A stretch of DNA of 34,945 nucleotides from Vicinamibacteria bacterium (GTDB lineage: Bacteria; Acidobacteriota; Vicinamibacteria; Fen-336). The stretch is taken from NCBI GenBank assembly GCA_023701125.1, contig JAMPXO010000049.1:1-34945 (forward strand). Direction: 5' to 3'. The translations under genes and the position numbers were made by a program. A model generated the notes under the pieces. The model was not told the origin of the DNA and did not search any database. It saw only the letters and a program-made list of their open reading frames with translations. Of the stretch, positions 1 through 31,559 are shown piece after piece. How positions within the stretch are numbered: position 1 is the stretch's first letter; each line of letters starts with the position of its first letter.

Positions 1-205
1 ACGACTGCATGCGCTGTGACGCGAACACGGCGTTGCCGCAGCGTTGGCCGAGGCCGAGGGTCCACTCGGTCACGGGCAGTGGGGTGCCGGCCAGGCCGTG
101 ACGGTCGGCCGCCTCGCGCAGCGAGACCAGCCACCCGGCCGTGGCGGAAAGCGGACCGGCGTGCCCGAGGGCGCGAACCGCAGAATCTCGCCGTTGGTGG
201 TCACC
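1..205 (-). CDS. Partial ORF, unrecognised, reading frame uncertain
   Basis: A coding-like stretch runs off the left window edge. A GTG at 205-203 overlaps the TGA of the upstream DUF3179 gene as GTGA, the coupling style used throughout this window, and opens with MTTNGEILRFAPSGTPVR. That frame stops after about 43 codons. The -1 frame reads openly to the window edge with GC-rich third positions (for example SATAGWLVSLREAADRHG and later RCGNAVFASQRMQS) but has no ATG, GTG or TTG start near its beginning. Either the gene is frameshifted (mutation or sequencing error around 140-155) or it uses an unusual start. I do not recognise the family. The position suggests co-transcription with the DUF3179 selenoprotein candidate. 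Confidence 0.3.
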
Positions 206-1169
206 GCTCCAGCAGCATCGTCCCCGGGTTGGTCAGGCTCCACGTGTACCAGAAGGTGTCGAAGCCCGACACTGGCTCGGCGGGGACGTCCCCACCGACG
301 AAGCGCCGCTGCTTGATGTCGTAGCGAGCACCGGTGTCGCGGTCGATCCAGGCGCCATCGCGGAACTCGAAGCCCGCGGCCGAGCGGAAGGCGCGCGTCG
401 CCTCGTGGAAGTCGGCACCGCGGGGCCGCTCCAGGAACAGGTGAAGGCCCGGGACCGAGAAGGCCGCGGCCTGGCCCTCGAACGCGGTGAACGGCACCGC
501 GTAGGCCTTGCCGCCGTGCCAGAAGGCGTAGATCGGCGCCTTCGTCGGCAGCCGCCGGTCCTTCGCCTGCATCGCGCGGAAGCCCTTTTCCGACGCGAGG
601 TAGTTGTCGTAGGGGTTGTTCTCGACGTGCTCGACGCCGTCGACCGAGAGCACCTGCGTCTGCGGGTGGCGTTTCACCCAGTCCGCGAAGCGGGCCTTCT
701 CGCCGAGCGGCAGCTCCTGCAGGCGGGTGCCGCCGTAGGTTCCCGCCAGCGCGGTGCCGGTCATGATCGACCAGTACGAGTCGGTCTCCTTGTCCTGCAT
801 GACGAGGGCCGAGTGCAGCAGCCCGCCGGAGGGCTCGAAGCGCAGTTCACGATCACCGTATTGCCGGCCGTACACGACGGCCGCGTTGGCGAGCGGTCAC
901 CAGACGGCGGCGACGGGCCGCCCTCCGATCCGGTCGTTGACCACCTCGTGGCGGTTGAGCAGGTTGAGGCTGTAGGCGCGCGCCTCGCCGCCGAGCGCGA
1001 CGCCCAGCACCCAGGCGTCGGCCGGGATGCGAGCGTCCGCGGCGGCCACGAACCGGGGCGCGTCGATGGCGGCGATGCGCCCGCGCGGCAGCAACTGGAC
1101 GAAGTCGTCGGGCAGTTGGGATTGCGGCCCGGCAGCCACCAGCAGGGAGACGGCGAGCAGGCTGAGCAT
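201..1169 (-). CDS. DUF3179 protein with in-frame UGA at codon 91 (candidate selenoprotein)
   Basis: Two abutting minus-strand ORFs (897-1169 and 201-875) lie in the same frame, separated only by one TGA at 899-897. Joined, they give 322 residues: a signal peptide (MLSLLAVSLLVAAG), then the DUF3179 core (LGVALGGEARAYSLNLLNRHEVVND). The UGA falls in VW-UGA-PLANAAVVY. The paralogue at 17648-18688 has SY-C-PLTGSGMVY there, so UGA replaces the conserved Cys. Sequence on both sides aligns with DUF3179 and there is no frameshift. A SECIS-like hairpin follows the UGA at 865-883. I infer that UGA is decoded as selenocysteine; a nonsense mutation or base error at a Cys codon is the alternative. The start has no Shine-Dalgarno, but a CRP-type promoter puts +1 at the ATG. 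DUF3179 function is not known to me; the protein is probably exported. Confidence 0.8.
865..883 (-). promoter_or_regulatory. SECIS-like hairpin downstream of the UGA
   Basis: In the mRNA, 13 bases after the UGA comes a perfect 7-bp stem CGGCCGU / ACGGCCG closing a 5-base loop CGUGU. The loop begins 20 bases after the UGA and its second base is G. As I recall the bacterial SECIS model, it asks for a short stem-loop with roughly 16-37 bases between UGA and apical loop and a G in the first two loop positions, so this fits. No folding energy was computed. Confidence 0.6.
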
Positions 1170-16691: not shown

Positions 16692-17528
16692 TCAGAACGC
16701 GCGGCTGATGCCGAGGCTCAACACCGGCCCGGCGGGCCAGTTGCGACCGCTGACCGTGAAGGGGACCGCGAGCGAAGCGCCCCAGCCCGACCCGAAGGCG
16801 GCCGTCAGCGCCGGCTGCAGGTACACGGCCTCGCGCCGCAGCGAGGTGATCGGCAGCCCAAAGGCCCGGGCGTCGCGGCCGTGCAGACCGCGCGCGACGA
16901 AGCGCAGGCCAGCCCCGCGCGGCAGGCCCCAACCCGCCTCGGCCACCCAGAACCACTCGTCCCCGGGGTCGATCCCGCTGCGGTCGTTGGCACGGCGGGC
17001 CCGGTAGCCGCCCTGGGCCGAGACGTACCCGGGGCGCGGCCACAGCGAGCGGCCCAGCTCCAGGCTGATCTCGCCGTCCCACTGGCCTTCGCCGACGGGC
17101 ACGATCTCGGCGTCGTTGGCGAAGTCGCCGGTCGGGGCCTTGATCCGCGCACCGACGGTGACGACCAGCGGCTCCATCGCCAGGTTCGCGCGCAGGCTGA
17201 GGCGCGTGTCCCCGATGCCCGTCGAGCGCCGGCCGGCGGCGAGGTCGTCGAAGTCGACCCGGAACAGCGCGCTCTGAACCCCGATCTCGAGCCGCGAGGT
17301 GAGCCCGTGGCTGACGTCCAGGAACAGCGCCTGGGTGCGGTTCTGGCCCTCGAAGAAGTAGGGAATGCGCTCGCCCGCGAGGAAGTACCGCTCGTCGGTC
17401 TGCTGGTGGTACAGGTTCAGCTCGATCCGGGTCCGCCCGTCCGGCTGGACCCAGGCGCCCGCCGCGGCAGGCTGGGCCGCGAGTGCCAGCCCGACCAAGG
17501 GCGCCCAAAGACGTCGTCTCCTGCTCAT
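16692..17528 (-). CDS. Outer-membrane beta-barrel protein, unknown cargo
   Basis: 278 residues. Signal peptide MSRRRRLWAPLVGLALAAQPAAA, then alternating amphipathic strands (TRIELNLYHQQTDERYFLAG, SRLEIGVQSALFRVDF, LRANLAMEPLVVTVGARIKA, EISLELGRSLW) and a terminal Phe in LSLGISRAF, the usual C-terminal outer-membrane insertion signal. The size would suit a barrel of about 12 strands. The specific family is not recognised. A GGAGG lies 12 bases before the ATG. The ORF could be extended upstream to 17597, but the mapped promoter lies in that extension, so 17528 is preferred. It shares a bidirectional promoter with the DUF3179 gene. Confidence 0.75.
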   Translation of the reverse strand: MSRRRRLWAPLVGLALAAQPAAAGAWVQPDGRTRIELNLYHQQTDERYFLAGERIPYFFEGQNRTQALFLDVSHGLTSRLEIGVQSALFRVDFDDLAAGRRSTGIGDTRLSLRANLAMEPLVVTVGARIKAPTGDFANDAEIVPVGEGQWDGEISLELGRSLWPRPGYVSAQGGYRARRANDRSGIDPGDEWFWVAEAGWGLPRGAGLRFVARGLHGRDARAFGLPITSLRREAVYLQPALTAAFGSGWGASLAVPFTVSGRNWPAGPVLSLGISRAF

Positions 17529-17555
17529 CGCGTCGTCGACCTCCGCCCCGCAAGC

Positions 17556-17598
17556 AGAGTAGGGGCCACGAACGACGCTGACTGTCGGAAGGCTCACA
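17556..17598 (-). promoter_or_regulatory. CRP-type promoter of the beta-barrel gene
   Basis: Minus strand: TGTGAGCCTTCCGACA (17598-17583), 21 bases, -10 TACTCT (17561-17556). The predicted +1 is about 6-7 bases later, giving a leader of about 20 bases that contains GGAGG. The same dyad serves the divergent gene. Confidence 0.7.
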
Positions 17599-17625
17599 GA
17601 AGCCGCGGCCCTGGGTCCCTAACGT
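17583..17625 (+). promoter_or_regulatory. CRP-type promoter of the DUF3179 (Cys) gene
   Basis: The same dyad read on the plus strand, TGTCGGAAGGCTCACA, is followed after 21 bases by TAACGT (17620-17625). A short leader with AAAGAAGG precedes ATG 17648. One 16-bp dyad thus has a -10 at exactly 21 bases on both sides. Confidence 0.65.
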
Positions 17626-17647
17626 GGAAGGCGAAAGAAGGTGTCCG

Positions 17648-18688
17648 ATGCGACCAATCCTCTTCGGCCTGGCGCTGCTCGCGCTGGCTGCGCCCAAGGT
17701 GGCGGGCCAGTCCTGTCTCGTGCCCAACAATCAACTCGTGTCCGGCGGACCGGGCAAGGACGGCATCCCGGCGCTGACGCGCCCGCGGACGATGGGTGCG
17801 GTCGAAGGAGCCACGGCCTGGGCGCCCGACACCCTCGTCCTGGGGGTGGTGATCGGCGGTGAAGCCCGGGCCTATCCGCACAACATCCTGTGGTGGCACG
17901 AGATCGTGAACGACGTTGTCGGTGGCCAGCCGATCGCGCTCAGCTACTGCCCGCTGACCGGCTCCGGCATGGTCTACGAGCCGCTCGTGCGCGATCGCGT
18001 CTCCGATTTCGGCGTCTCGGGCCTGCTCTTCGACAACAACCTCGTGCTCTACGACCGCAACCAGCCGGAGACGCTGTGGTCGCAGATGCGCGTCCAGGGC
18101 ATCTGCGGTGCCGAGGCCGGCCGGAAGCCGCGCCTGTTACCGGTCACCCAGTCGACCTGGGCCGCGTGGCGGGCGTTGCACCCGGAGACCACGATCCTCC
18201 ATCCCGATACGGGACACCGCCGCAGCTACTCGGTCTATCCCTACGGCACCTACGACCGGCTCGACGACAGCAGCCTGTTGTTCCCGCAGAGCTTCGTCGA
18301 CCCGCGGCGGCCGATGAAGGAGCTGGTCTTCGGCTTCACCCAGGAGGGCGTGTCGCGGGCCTGGCCCTACGGCGCCCTGGGCGAGCGCGCCGCGATCAAC
18401 GATCACGTCGGCGCGCGTGCGGTGCTGGTGGTTTGGGACCAGCAGGCGCAGATGGCGATCGGCTTCGATCGCACGGTCGGCGAGCAGACCTTCGAGTTCG
18501 AGCTGGAAGAGACGGGAGGCTTCCCCTTCCGGCTGCGCGATCGGCAGACCGGTTCGCTGTGGAGCCTCGACGGCCTGGCCGTCGAAGGCCCGCTGGCCGG
18601 CACCCTGTTGCCCCGCCTCGCCACCTTCTCCGCGATGTGGTTCGCGTGGGCCAGCTTCCACCGCGGCACCGAGCTCTACCTGCCCTGA
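17648..18688 (+). CDS. DUF3179 protein, cysteine form
   Basis: 346 residues with signal peptide MRPILFGLALLALAAPKVAG, so exported. The DUF3179 core is complete: LVLGVVIGGEARAYPHNILW, HEIVNDVVGG, then SYCPLTGSGMVY with C101, followed by FDNNLVLYDR and TLWSQM. C101 is the position occupied by UGA in the paralogue at 201-1169. Function unknown to me; the exposed conserved Cys suggests redox or metal chemistry. AAAGAAGG lies 7-14 bases before the chosen ATG; an in-frame ATG at 17624 overlaps the predicted -10 and is rejected. Divergent from the beta-barrel gene and sharing its activator site. Confidence 0.9.
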   Translation: MRPILFGLALLALAAPKVAGQSCLVPNNQLVSGGPGKDGIPALTRPRTMGAVEGATAWAPDTLVLGVVIGGEARAYPHNILWWHEIVNDVVGGQPIALSYCPLTGSGMVYEPLVRDRVSDFGVSGLLFDNNLVLYDRNQPETLWSQMRVQGICGAEAGRKPRLLPVTQSTWAAWRALHPETTILHPDTGHRRSYSVYPYGTYDRLDDSSLLFPQSFVDPRRPMKELVFGFTQEGVSRAWPYGALGERAAINDHVGARAVLVVWDQQAQMAIGFDRTVGEQTFEFELEETGGFPFRLRDRQTGSLWSLDGLAVEGPLAGTLLPRLATFSAMWFAWASFHRGTELYLP

Positions 18689-18731
18689 CGACGCCGTCGC
18701 CGGTGGCTGCGTCGGCGTTCTCTTCGGTTCC

Positions 18732-18774
18732 TGTGAGCGAGCCGACAGCTTCGGGGAGCGCGGCGCCACAGACT
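18732..18774 (+). promoter_or_regulatory. CRP-type class II promoter of the bufferin operon
   Basis: TGTGAGCGAGCCGACA (18732-18747), 21 bases, -10 CAGACT (18769-18774), 6 bases, then ATG 18781. Dyad centre is at -41.5 from the start codon. There is no Shine-Dalgarno, so a leaderless start is predicted. Confidence 0.75.
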
Positions 18775-18780
18775 GCCGGC

Positions 18781-19602
18781 ATGCAGATCGGGGGATGCGG
18801 TCTCGGCCTTCGCCGCGAGCACTACGAGGTGGTGCTCGCCGAGCGCCCACCCGTGGCCTGGTTCGAGGTGATCACCGAGAACTTCATGGTCGCCGGCGGA
18901 CGCCCGCGACGCGTGCTCGAGCAGGTCCGCGCGTCGTACCCCGTCGCACTCCACGGCGTGTCGCTGTCGATCGGGTCCGCCGAGCCGCTGGACGCCGGCT
19001 ACCTCGACCGGCTGGCCACGCTGGTCCGCGAGATCGAGCCGGCGCTCGTCTCCGACCACCTGTGCTGGACCCGGCTGGGCGGCCACAGCAGCCACGACCT
19101 GCTGCCGCTGCCGATGACCCGCGAGAGCGTCGAGCTGGTGGTGCGCCGCGTCGACCAGGTCCAGGAGTGGCTGGGTCGTCGCCTGCTGCTCGAGAACGTG
19201 TCGAGCTACGTGCGCTTCGCCCAGGACGAGATGACCGAGTGGGAGTTCGTCGCCGAGGTGGCCGAGCGCGCCGACTGCCACCTGCTGCTCGACGTCAACA
19301 ACGTCTACGTCAACGCCCGCAACCACGGCTTCGACCCCGTCGCCTACCTGGACGGGTTGCCCGCTTCGCGGGTGCGGCAGATCCACCTTGCCGGCCACGA
19401 GGACCACGGCCACGTGGTGATCGACACTCACGACGCCGCCGTGCGTGACGAGGTGTGGGACCTGTATCGCGCCGCGGTCGGGCGTTTCGGTCCGGTGCCG
19501 ACGCTGATCGAGCGCGACGCGCGGGTGCCGCCGCTGCCCGAGCTGCTCGCGGAAACCCGCGTCGCCGCGGAGATCCAGGCGGGGTTGCTTGCAGCTCGCT
19601 GA
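18781..19602 (+). CDS. bufB: MNIO-family (DUF692) enzyme, BufB-like
   Basis: 273 residues. This is the multinuclear non-heme iron oxygenase family that modifies cysteines of ribosomally made peptides. Family motifs with likely metal ligands are visible: ALHGVSLSIG, VSDHLCW, LLLENVSSYV, HLLLDVNNVYVNARNHG, IHLAGHEDHGH and TLIERDA. It should act in the cytoplasm on the Cys-rich precursor encoded two genes downstream (20428-20736), together with the DUF2063 partner. An unusual point is GGCGLGLR at the N-terminus, where the family usually has a small residue in place of Cys. The start follows the -10 by only 6 bases. Confidence 0.93.
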   Translation: MQIGGCGLGLRREHYEVVLAERPPVAWFEVITENFMVAGGRPRRVLEQVRASYPVALHGVSLSIGSAEPLDAGYLDRLATLVREIEPALVSDHLCWTRLGGHSSHDLLPLPMTRESVELVVRRVDQVQEWLGRRLLLENVSSYVRFAQDEMTEWEFVAEVAERADCHLLLDVNNVYVNARNHGFDPVAYLDGLPASRVRQIHLAGHEDHGHVVIDTHDAAVRDEVWDLYRAAVGRFGPVPTLIERDARVPPLPELLAETRVAAEIQAGLLAAR

Positions 19603-20401
19603 CCCGACGTCCCTGCGCGAGACCCAGGCTTGTGTGCTCGCGGCGCTGCGGGCCGGCAGCGGAGCCGGCGAGGTGGAGGCGCTGCTGGCGCCGCCCGCGT
19701 TCGGCGACGTGGCCGCGCGCTGGCACGTCTACGAGAGCGGCTACACGGCGCGCTTCGTCGAGGCGCTGGAGAACGACTTCCCGGCCCTGCACCGCATCCT
19801 CGGCCAGGGCCCCTTCACCAGCCTGACCGTGCGCTACACCCGCGCCTGTGTGCCGCGCTGCTTCGACCTGGGCCGGCTCGGCGATCGGCTGGCCGTGTTC
19901 CTCGAGACCGACCCGCTGTCCCGCACGCTGCCGTTCCTGTCCGATCTCGCGCGGCTCGAGTGGGCGCTGGCCGAGGCCTTCGTGGCAGCGGAGGCGACGC
20001 CGCTGGGGCTCGCCGACCTGCACACCGCGGGCCTGGAGGCGGTGGCGGACTGGCCCCTCGGCCTGGCTCCGGGCGCGGCCGTGATCGCCTCGGCCTGGCC
20101 GCTGTGCGAGCTGTGGGCGATCCAGGCGGTGGCGGACGAGGCGATCGACCTGGACGTCACGGCCCGCCCGAGCGACGTGCTGGTGCGGCGCGCGGGCGAC
20201 CGGGTCGTGCCGCTCGCACTGGAGCCGCCCGATGCCGCGCTGCTGACCGCGGTCGCCGCCGGCGCGCGCCTGGCCGACCTGGCCGCAGCGGCGGCCGATG
20301 CAGCGGCCGTCGACGACCTGGCCCTGCGCTTCCGCGCCTGGGTCGAAGCGGAAGTGATCGTGCGCCGCCCGGCGTCGCCCGACCAAGAGTTCTCGATGTA
20401 G
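19589..20401 (+). CDS. bufC: DUF2063 partner protein, BufC-like
   Basis: 270 residues from a TTG start that overlaps the end of bufB by 14 bases. The N-terminal half has the DUF2063 signature (WHVYESGYTARFVEALENDFPALHRILG, then FLSDLARLEWALAEAF). MNIO enzymes commonly need such a partner for peptide recognition; the C-terminal third is Ala-rich and poorly conserved. No signal peptide, so cytoplasmic. Order here is B, C, then the precursor, rather than precursor first. Confidence 0.88.
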   Translation: MQLADPTSLRETQACVLAALRAGSGAGEVEALLAPPAFGDVAARWHVYESGYTARFVEALENDFPALHRILGQGPFTSLTVRYTRACVPRCFDLGRLGDRLAVFLETDPLSRTLPFLSDLARLEWALAEAFVAAEATPLGLADLHTAGLEAVADWPLGLAPGAAVIASAWPLCELWAIQAVADEAIDLDVTARPSDVLVRRAGDRVVPLALEPPDAALLTAVAAGARLADLAAAAADAAAVDDLALRFRAWVEAEVIVRRPASPDQEFSM

Positions 20402-20427
20402 TGAAGACGAGGAATGGAGGAGCGGAG

Positions 20428-20736
20428 ATGAAGAGGACGATGGAGACCACCCCGAGCCGGAGGCTGTTGATCGCGTCGCTGGCGGGCGCCCTGGCGCTGC
20501 CGGCGCTGGCGGGCCCGAGCGCGCAGCCGGCGCCGGCTGCCGAGAAGGTCAAGTGCTACGGCGTCAACAAGTGCAAGGGCACCGGCGACTGCGGTGGCCC
20601 CGGCCACTCGTGCGCCAACCAGAACACCTGCAAGCGCCAGGGCTACGTCGAGATGGACAAGGACACCTGTCTGCGCCTCGACGGCGGCCGGCTGACGCCC
20701 AACGAAGAAGCGAAGAAGGACGGCGACAAGAAGTAG
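20428..20736 (+). CDS. bufA: Bufferin-type Cys-rich exported peptide precursor (BufA-like)
   Basis: 102 residues. Basic N-terminus and signal peptide (SRRLLIASLAGALALPALAG), then a mature region with six cysteines (KCYGVNKCKGTGDC, SCANQNTC, DTC) and a Lys/Asp-rich tail. The KCYGVNKCKG start matches the BufA group of RiPP metallophores, closest in my memory to BufA2. In characterised bufferins an MNIO enzyme converts Cys to thiooxazole-type groups, and the exported peptide binds copper. GGAGG lies 7 bases before the ATG. Assignment of family is strong; the metal is inferred. Confidence 0.85.
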   Translation: MKRTMETTPSRRLLIASLAGALALPALAGPSAQPAPAAEKVKCYGVNKCKGTGDCGGPGHSCANQNTCKRQGYVEMDKDTCLRLDGGRLTPNEEAKKDGDKK

Positions 20737-20740
20737 GCCT

Positions 20741-20781
20741 GGGGGAGCGGACCGCCCGCTGGCGCGGTCCGCTCGTGCCCC
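20741..20781 (+). terminator. Strong intergenic hairpin between bufA and yceI
   Basis: Perfect 11-bp arms GAGCGGACCGC (20745-20755) and GCGGTCCGCTC (20764-20774) around an 8-base loop, with GGGG and CCCC able to pair outside. No U-tract follows, so it is not a classic intrinsic terminator. A partial terminator or an mRNA-stabilising hairpin that raises bufA over yceI expression are both plausible. Confidence 0.6.
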
Positions 20782-20802
20782 GTTCCGAGGAGCAAAAAGA
20801 AG

Positions 20803-21399
20803 ATGAAGACTCGTATGGCCGCTGGCGTCCTGGCCCTGGCCGGGCTGTTGGCGGCGGGGCCCGCCGTCGGCGAGGCGCTGCCGCTCAAGATCGACGCCGA
20901 GCACTCGACGGTCGCCTTCAAGGTGCGTCACCTCTTCACCAGGGTGGCGGGGCAGTTCCGCAAGTTCGAGGGCACGATCGAGTTCGATCGCGCCAGCCTG
21001 GCCGCTTCCAAGGTCGCGGTCACGATCCAGGCCGACAGCATCGACACCAACGTCGAGGCCCGCGACAAGGACCTGCGCAGCCCGCGCTTCTTCGACGTCG
21101 CGAAGTTCCCGACCCTCACCTTCGTGAGCACCGGCATCACCGGCGTCGCTGGCCAGCGCGGGCAGATCCGCGGCACCCTCACCATGCACGGCGTGTCCCG
21201 CGACGTCGTGCTCGCCACCGAGTTCCTGGGTGCCGGCAAGGACCCGTGGGGCAACACCCGCTACGGCTTCCAGGCCGTCACCACCGTCAACCGCAAGGAC
21301 TTCGGCATGGCCTGGAACGAGGTGATCGAGGCCGGCGGCGTGCTGGTCGGCGACGAAGTGGAGATCGTCCTCGACGTCGAAGCCGTTCCGGCACGCTGA
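20803..21399 (+). CDS. YceI-family periplasmic protein
   Basis: 198 residues. Signal peptide (AAGVLALAGLLAAGPAVGEA), then a lipocalin-like YceI fold with the typical motifs IDAEHSTVAFKVRHLFTRVAGQF, FDRASLAASKVAVTIQADSIDTN, RSPRFFDVAKFPTLTF and GTLTMHGVSRDVVL. YceI proteins bind isoprenoid-type or other hydrophobic ligands in the periplasm. GAGGAG lies ahead of the ATG. Location 66 bases after bufA suggests membership of the same operon. Confidence 0.93.
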   Translation: MKTRMAAGVLALAGLLAAGPAVGEALPLKIDAEHSTVAFKVRHLFTRVAGQFRKFEGTIEFDRASLAASKVAVTIQADSIDTNVEARDKDLRSPRFFDVAKFPTLTFVSTGITGVAGQRGQIRGTLTMHGVSRDVVLATEFLGAGKDPWGNTRYGFQAVTTVNRKDFGMAWNEVIEAGGVLVGDEVEIVLDVEAVPAR

Positions 21400-27136: not shown

Positions 27137-27244
27137 CTACTTGGAGGCCTGCGGCTTCTTGGCGCAGCGGCAGTCCTTCCCGCAGTTACACTTGCCGCCC
27201 TTGTCGCATTCGCACTTCATCTCGCCACACGCGTTGCATTTCAT
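27137..27244 (-). CDS. Metallothionein-like Cys-rich peptide
   Basis: 35 residues with eight cysteines: MKCNACGEMKCECDKGG followed by KCNCGKDCRCAKK. The dense CxC and CxxC pattern without a signal peptide points to an intracellular metal-thiolate binder. A strong GGAGG sits 7 bases before ATG 27244. A much longer open frame extends upstream through pfkB, but it is a shadow. Divergent from the sugar kinase, with 93 bases between them. Confidence 0.8.
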   Translation of the reverse strand: MKCNACGEMKCECDKGGKCNCGKDCRCAKKPQASK

Positions 27245-30145: not shown

Positions 30146-30721
30146 TCAGGCGCGCGACTTCCACTCGTGACCGGCGAACACGCCGTCGAGCGGGGTGTGG
30201 AACAGGTGGTTGGCGTAGTTGCTGAGCGTCTTGACCGCCAGCGCCAGCACGATCTCCAGCACGTGGCGCTCCTGGTAGCCGGCCGCCAGGAAGGCCTCGA
30301 CGTCGGCCTTCGACGGCAGGCCGCGGGTCGCGCGCAGCGTCTCGGTGAAGCGGGCCAGCGCGCCCAGCTTCGGGTCCGGCACCTCGCGTCCCTCGCGCAG
30401 CGCGAGGAGCACCGCGGCCGGCACCTGCGAGACCTTCTCGGCCAGCATGCTGTGGGCCGACACGCAGTAGTCGCAGCCGTTGCCGACGCTGACCGCCAGG
30501 AACACCACCTCCTGCTCGGCCGGGGTGAAGCCGGAGCTCTTGCGGAAGCGCTCGTAGCCGTCGAGGTAGGTCTCGAGCAGGCCCGGCGAGTGGACCATGC
30601 CCGCGTACATGTTGGGGATGAAGCCGAGCGCGCGCTGGGCGCGCTCGAGCACGGGGCGGGCCTCGGGGCTCGCGGCGTCGAGGCTGACGAGGGGCTGGGT
30701 CATCTTGTATTCGCTGTTCAT
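30146..30721 (-). CDS. AhpD-like carboxymuconolactone decarboxylase family protein
   Basis: 191 residues. Redox CxxC with downstream His (GCDYCVSAH: C83, C86, H90), the catalytic triad region of AhpD-type peroxidase-related proteins. FTPAEQEVVFLAVSVGNGC and HVLEIVLALAVKTLSNYANH are family hallmarks. Likely peroxide or alkyl hydroperoxide defence. AAGGAACG precedes the ATG. A perfect TetR-type operator lies about 33 bases upstream, so it can be expressed and repressed separately from the redoxin gene. Confidence 0.92.
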   Translation of the reverse strand: MNSEYKMTQPLVSLDAASPEARPVLERAQRALGFIPNMYAGMVHSPGLLETYLDGYERFRKSSGFTPAEQEVVFLAVSVGNGCDYCVSAHSMLAEKVSQVPAAVLLALREGREVPDPKLGALARFTETLRATRGLPSKADVEAFLAAGYQERHVLEIVLALAVKTLSNYANHLFHTPLDGVFAGHEWKSRA

Positions 30722-30794: not shown

Positions 30795-31559
30795 TCAGGC
30801 GCGCCCGGGGCGCAGCAGCTTCAGCAGCGAGGCCAGCGCCGCCAGCGGTGGGGTCACGCGCCACAGGTCGGCCCACGCGCCGCGGCCGGCGCGGTCCATC
30901 ACGGGGGCGACGCGGGGCAGCATCCGGACCATGGCCTTGACCAGGCCGCCGCTCTCGAGCCGGGGCAGCGCCCGCGCCGCGGTGAGCGCCACCAGCGCTT
31001 CGCCGATCGCCTCCCAGTCATTGGCCCAGTGGGCGCGGAACAGGATCGTGCCGTCGTGTCCCAGCAGGTATGCGGAGTTGGGCTTGGGGCCGAGCGCCCG
31101 GTGCAGGCGGCCGTCGACGTCGTCGACTGCGACCTCGAAGGGCAGTGCGTGCAGGTCCCGCAGCCGGGTGGCGCGCTCGAGCTTGGCGGCGTCGGTCGTG
31201 GGCTGGGGCAGCGCGTCGCCCGGGTGGGCCTCGCGCACGTTCACCATCACGAAGCGGACGGCGTGCCCGAAGCGGGCGTGCAGGTCACGCAGCCGCGGGG
31301 CCGCGTCGTCGGTGACCGGGCACGTCGCCGAGCCGAAGACGAGCAGGACGGGGCCAGTGTCGGCAAGTTCCGCGCGCCGGAAGCGCCCGCCCCCGACCAG
31401 GGGCAGGTCGAAGTCGGGGACGTGGTCTCCGGCCCTCGGGGCCGACTCGTCGAAACGCATGTCCGCCAGGATCAGCGGCAGCGACAGCCGCTCGAAACGG
31501 TAGCGGCGACCGTCCTCGGTCGGCGGGCAGGCTGCCGCCACGTCGTTCGTGTGCGTCAC
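30795..31559 (-). CDS. Redoxin related to iodothyronine deiodinase, cysteine form
   Basis: 254 residues. A thioredoxin-fold core: DHVPDFDLPLVGGG, then LLVFGSATCPV with C80, followed by VNVREAHPGDAL and later NSAYLLGHDGTILFRAHWAND. In animal deiodinases the corresponding motif is FGSCTUPP followed by EEAHPSDGW, so C80 aligns with selenocysteine. The substrate here is unlikely to be thyroid hormone; a peroxide or thiol role is more plausible. GTG start with GAGGAG upstream. Between tetR and the AhpD-like gene. Confidence 0.82.
   Translation of the reverse strand: MTHTNDVAAACPPTEDGRRYRFERLSLPLILADMRFDESAPRAGDHVPDFDLPLVGGGRFRRAELADTGPVLLVFGSATCPVTDDAAPRLRDLHARFGHAVRFVMVNVREAHPGDALPQPTTDAAKLERATRLRDLHALPFEVAVDDVDGRLHRALGPKPNSAYLLGHDGTILFRAHWANDWEAIGEALVALTAARALPRLESGGLVKAMVRMLPRVAPVMDRAGRGAWADLWRVTPPLAALASLLKLLRPGRA

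Follow-up and report, generated by a model that had tools for sequence, protein, structure and literature searches.

The in-frame UGA near the start of the window, by which we mean the whole stretch of 34,945 nucleotides analysed here from a Vicinamibacteria bacterium, is best explained as a selenocysteine (Sec) codon. We regard it as almost certain that the gene carrying it encodes a Sec-decoded DUF3179 selenoprotein belonging to a clade that appears fixed for Sec; the protein is probably exported, folds as Rieske-like repeats and likely uses its selenol in redox chemistry.

The gene occupies positions 201-1169 of the minus strand. Read through the UGA from 1169 to 201, it encodes 322 residues and ends with a TGA terminator at 203-201. 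Its sole internal TGA lies at 899-897 and corresponds to residue 91 in the motif VW-U-PLAN; no further lesion was found in this reading frame. The PF11376 (DUF3179) profile matches in one stretch that spans both flanks of the UGA (residues 31-315, E 3e-54), covers profile positions 3-290 of 292 and scores 184.8 bits against a curated cut-off of 27, which places the gene in the family with its whole domain. GC3 is 0.94 upstream and 0.93 downstream of the UGA. The first-pass annotation had described an otherwise intact DUF3179 gene, split by one UGA at the column where a paralogue in the same window has Cys, and this description held in both respects. The paralogue (17624-18688, plus strand, motif SYCPLTG), which falls in a separate clade from the Sec gene, carries the Cys codon TGC at 17948-17950 in the very column that is occupied by Cys in homologues of the family. 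The protein encoded at 201-1169 has no Cys residue outside position 91.

The genome is equipped to decode such a codon. It contains a tRNA-Sec, which scores 71.9 bits, over the Rfam cut-off, and which ARAGORN likewise reports as tRNA-SeC(tca), together with selA (516 bits), selB (312 bits) and selD (352 bits). The complete set of SelA, SelB, SelD and tRNA-Sec expected for a bacterial selenoprotein is thus present. The selD gene (G000:C9:11801-12718) has an in-frame TGA of its own, which splits it within SSAG-U-ASKL; this is the usual Sec site of SelD, which is commonly a selenoprotein itself. Across the sampled genomes, selA was above the cut-off in 43 of the 46 with a UGA copy of DUF3179, compared to 21 of the 34 for which only Cys copies were listed, and of 19 clade genomes examined for it, 18 carry it. 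The exceptions among UGA-bearing genomes are G046, which has selB and no detected selA; G080, where selA is not above the cut-off and fragments were found; G317 (310 contigs, 93% complete), where neither selA nor selB was detected; and the candidate division KSB1 record L117, where selA was not detected. UGA-bearing genomes of this kind may simply be incomplete metagenome assemblies.

We searched for PF11376 in 396 genomes of the window's phylum. A first alignment of the fetched loci held 61 UGA rows and 31 Cys rows in a single column; after a second search there were 102 and 32, counts in which some loci are present twice, and every in-frame UGA still fell in the same column. The only other residues in this column are Gln in one partial protein and Ala in a single row, the latter being a second-half match of locus L100. 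This locus is itself a divergent Sec member (U-P-I-D in place of UPL[C/T/A]), and its genome, G386, contains at least three UGA-bearing DUF3179 genes. Elsewhere in the family, Sec forms are scattered over differing subgroups (L068, L074, L085 and L102, with UTLC, UPLT and UPLS motifs), L068 being a Sec row within a Cys clade, which argues for repeated exchange of Cys and Sec across DUF3179. One group of sequences (f19) places Cys forms, YCTLCH, from genomes without full selA beside a Sec form, YUTLCH, whose genome does have selA.

The window gene falls in a subgroup with a different pattern, VW-U-PLA[NQ] (UxxA). A protein-pattern search of genome contigs from 84,980 species returned 42 loci of this clade, all 42 with TGA in the Sec column and none with Cys. 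They are labelled as Acidobacteriota (many of them Thermoanaerobaculia), Calditrichota, Krumholzibacteriota, Latescibacterota and candidate division KSB1; a Deltaproteobacteria label on one record is doubtful, since its contig belongs to G386, a genome in our sample of the window's phylum. In the tree, the clade comprises 35 rows, each with Sec, on a branch of length 1.06 with support of 100/100, although the bootstrap had yet to settle completely. When the 396 phylum genomes were searched independently with a profile, 11 clade-level matches emerged, every one of which had one TGA. Furthermore, the UxxA motif is confined to Sec forms: beyond the clade, PLA follows the residue in 8 more Sec members and in no Cys member. 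Judged from these sequences, the clade appears to be fixed for Sec. We found no conserved neighbourhood around its loci, where no gene recurs widely; the sole recurring neighbour is a Ku-like gene at 6 loci. No NCBIfam model matched the window protein.

AlphaFold2 modelled the protein with a pLDDT of 94.6, both as a whole and for its first half alone. The first half (residues 60-161; positions 687-992, minus strand) contains Sec91 and the conserved H74-E75-N78-D79. The second (residues 205-322; positions 204-557, minus strand) is a degenerate repeat that lacks the Sec/Cys and the His of the first, and hhalign relates the two with a probability of 99.7% (E 2.4e-25). The predicted fold of the first half is Rieske-like: it matches Rieske-fold structures with a Z of 6.9 within the whole model and, modelled alone, with a Z of 8.9 over 92 aligned residues (rmsd 3.1), and all 50 structure matches listed were Rieske-fold proteins. 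The cluster ligands of a Rieske iron-sulphur protein, CxH...CxxH, are nevertheless lacking. In the alignment to the ferredoxin 2qpz (92 residues, pairing model 10-111 with chain 2-96), Sec91 falls at ferredoxin residue 23-36, and the aligned ranges place it ahead of the cluster-binding Cys and their region. With the ligands missing and Sec91 ahead of the cluster region, the Rieske-like fold says little about function. We also considered Sec as a ligand of Rieske box II, owing to a resemblance to C-P-x-H, and rejected it as residue 91 precedes the cluster region and two of the four ligands are missing. An hhalign comparison with the genome's own Rieske proteins found no sequence similarity (0.3%), no solved structure related by sequence was found, and a Foldseek search of the whole model against the PDB gave nothing significant (best E 0.019). 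The model suggests that Sec sits in a beta-hairpin turn of the first repeat.

We propose the following mechanism. SelA, SelB, SelD and tRNA-Sec of this genome would decode the UGA at 899-897 as Sec under the direction of a hairpin at 883-865. The protein is probably exported, as judged by eye from its sequence: it has a hydrophobic N-terminus with a probable signal peptide (MLSLLAVSLLVAAG, minus strand), and relatives have lipoprotein-like starts. The mature protein would fold as two Rieske-like repeats with Sec in the first, and the selenol would act as a catalytic redox nucleophile aided by His74, Glu75, Asn78 and Asp79, of which the His, Glu and Asn are invariant and the Asp nearly so. It is reasonable to take the Sec/Cys column to be catalytic from its occupancy in the family (32 Cys, 102 Sec and one Gln, the last from a partial protein). 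The domains of 39 of 43 clade members contain no Cys-like residue apart from Sec, which leaves these without a resolving Cys. Hence, oxidised Se would be restored by an external thiol or reductase, whereas the UxxC relatives would use their resolving Cys.

The same solitary Sec could instead serve as a ligand of a metal or heavy atom, with a role in electron transfer or in metal or metalloid binding, and the resemblance of the fold to Rieske electron-transfer domains points the same way. We consider this unlikely, though less so than the other alternatives: the Rieske ligands are absent, Sec91 lies ahead of the cluster-binding Cys in the 2qpz alignment, and close relatives bear UxxC, a redox motif. 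We regard the window protein as most likely an exported redox enzyme with a single selenol. More tentatively, and with rather less than even confidence, the clade as a whole may be a separate exported single-selenol enzyme that requires Se, built on a cluster-less duplicated Rieske-like scaffold and spread over several phyla with neither a Cys substitute nor a resolving Cys.

The hairpin that would direct Sec insertion (865-883, minus strand) has a 7-bp stem, 883-877 pairing with 871-865, and the loop CGUGU at 876-872. According to published criteria (PMC13188914, Fig. 2A), a bacterial SECIS has a loop of 3-9 nt and an upper stem of 4-16 bp, a G within the first two loop positions, a distance of 16-37 nt from the UGA and an MFE of at most -7.5 kcal/mol. 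The window hairpin, which is much as the first-pass annotation had drawn it, lies within all five limits, with a 5-nt loop, a 7-bp stem, G in the second position, a spacing of 20 nt from the UGA and -10.6 kcal/mol (21 nt). Taken singly it is only suggestive and could have arisen by chance, since 8.5% of synonymous recodings score equally well; its significance comes from conservation and covariation across relatives. Over the 42 clade genes, whose kinship inflates both the covariation and the codon counts given here, 91.5% of stem cells are paired and 11 cells have changed on both sides. This pairing was matched by none of 500 shuffles, and slid structures pair at 23-55%. The strongest pair, between base 18 and base 28 downstream of the UGA, joins the third base of an Ala codon to its partner and is C-G in 34 genes, U-A in 7 and A-U in 1, with no mismatches; its changes track the residue that follows Tyr (Gly or Asp versus Ser). 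The pair of columns 20 and 32 is unpaired in 20 of the 42 genes. In the loop, the two Val codons occur as GUC-GUG (30 genes) or GUA/GUG-GUC/GUU (12) and in no other combination, in keeping with the rule of pairing between the bases on either side of G-[G/U]. Compared with synonymous shuffles, the hairpin has a mean z of 1.2 in clade UGA genes and 1.7 in other UGA genes versus -0.2 in Cys genes, and in this control comparison the hairpins of UGA genes sit at fixed positions.

These results leave little room for a pseudogene with a nonsense mutation, or for a sequencing error at TGC/TGT. The contig does begin at base 1 of the window, near the gene, and it belongs to a fragmented draft assembly of 254 contigs. 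However, the same UGA is shared by 42 clade members that were sequenced independently and by dozens of further DUF3179 genes, the frames are intact on both sides, the stem covaries and GC3 stays coding-like past the UGA; at the level of the family, the UGA column counts, the 396-genome search and the tree refute both readings, which we find very improbable for the window gene. Suppression or an altered code by which UGA is read as Cys, Trp or Arg would produce an equally conserved UGA with coding flanks, but is hardly credible given that the column residue is Cys and not Trp or Arg, that this gene and others terminate with TGA, and that tRNA-Sec, selA, selB and selD are all in the genome. Decoding of the UGA at 899-897 as Sec at the conserved Cys column, which was the central claim of the first-pass annotation, is strongly supported by the three lines of sequence evidence that it had proposed to examine, namely the Sec genes, the UGAs of homologues in the same column and the covarying SECIS.

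Several other features of the window were recorded. After the Cys-DUF3179 paralogue come genes for an MNIO enzyme (PF05114, E 9e-115), a DUF2063 protein, a small Cys-rich protein without a Pfam match (20425-20733) and YceI; this segment (17624-21399) looks like a bufferin-type copper/RiPP operon. Divergent to the paralogue is a gene for a barrel-like outer-membrane protein (16695-17597). A 50% identical protein with a PF13557 match is encoded at 7296-8189 of L127, again divergent to a Cys-DUF3179 gene; there the barrel gene is flanked on the opposite side by a Sec-DUF3179 gene, and the Sec-DUF3179, Cys-DUF3179 and barrel genes adjoin. On the minus strand, a deiodinase/redoxin-like protein (30798-31559) and a carboxymuconolactone decarboxylase-like protein (30149-30721) are Cys forms of families with selenoprotein members, and a short Cys-rich reading frame at 27140-27241 is metallothionein-like (MKCNACGEMKCECDKGGKCNCGKDCRCAKKPQASK).

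Standard annotation splits the clade genes at the UGA, and a widespread selenoprotein is missed as a result. DUF3179 overall has Cys forms and the 42-locus clade has none, which hints at a reaction that may need Se itself. The conserved Sec/Cys residue also indicates where this domain of unknown function may have its active site, and the duplicated Rieske-like fold offers a first structural model of DUF3179 for testing.

The first-pass annotation was right about Sec and mistaken about its novelty. It knew of no described DUF3179 selenoprotein, but the family (PF11376) is listed as a predicted selenoprotein with the motif UxxC/T (PMC9312934, 2022; PMC13188914, 2026), and both reviews credit Zhang and Gladyshev 2007, so that the family-level claim was already known. 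The window protein shares with the listed selenoprotein its Pfam family and a single Sec, placed where most other members have Cys. It differs from the listed motif in that the window gene and its clade have U-P-L-A, i.e. UxxA, without a resolving Cys, and no Cys-form member of the clade was found. What is new here is this undescribed UxxA branch, which extends across several phyla and has Sec in all copies found. The clade hairpins agree with the bacterial SECIS consensus in loop size, stem length, loop G, spacing and stability, whereas the cross-loop pair would be C21-G24 in 30 of the 42 genes and R21-U25 in the other 12, and a single stem mismatch, C-A or G-A, occurs in half of the genes. 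Finally, the Sec-bearing half has a predicted fold like that of Rieske-type ferredoxins and NirD (e.g. 2qpz and 3c0d), but it carries no cluster ligands, hhalign shows no sequence likeness to this genome's own Rieske proteins, and the DUF3179 unit is duplicated.
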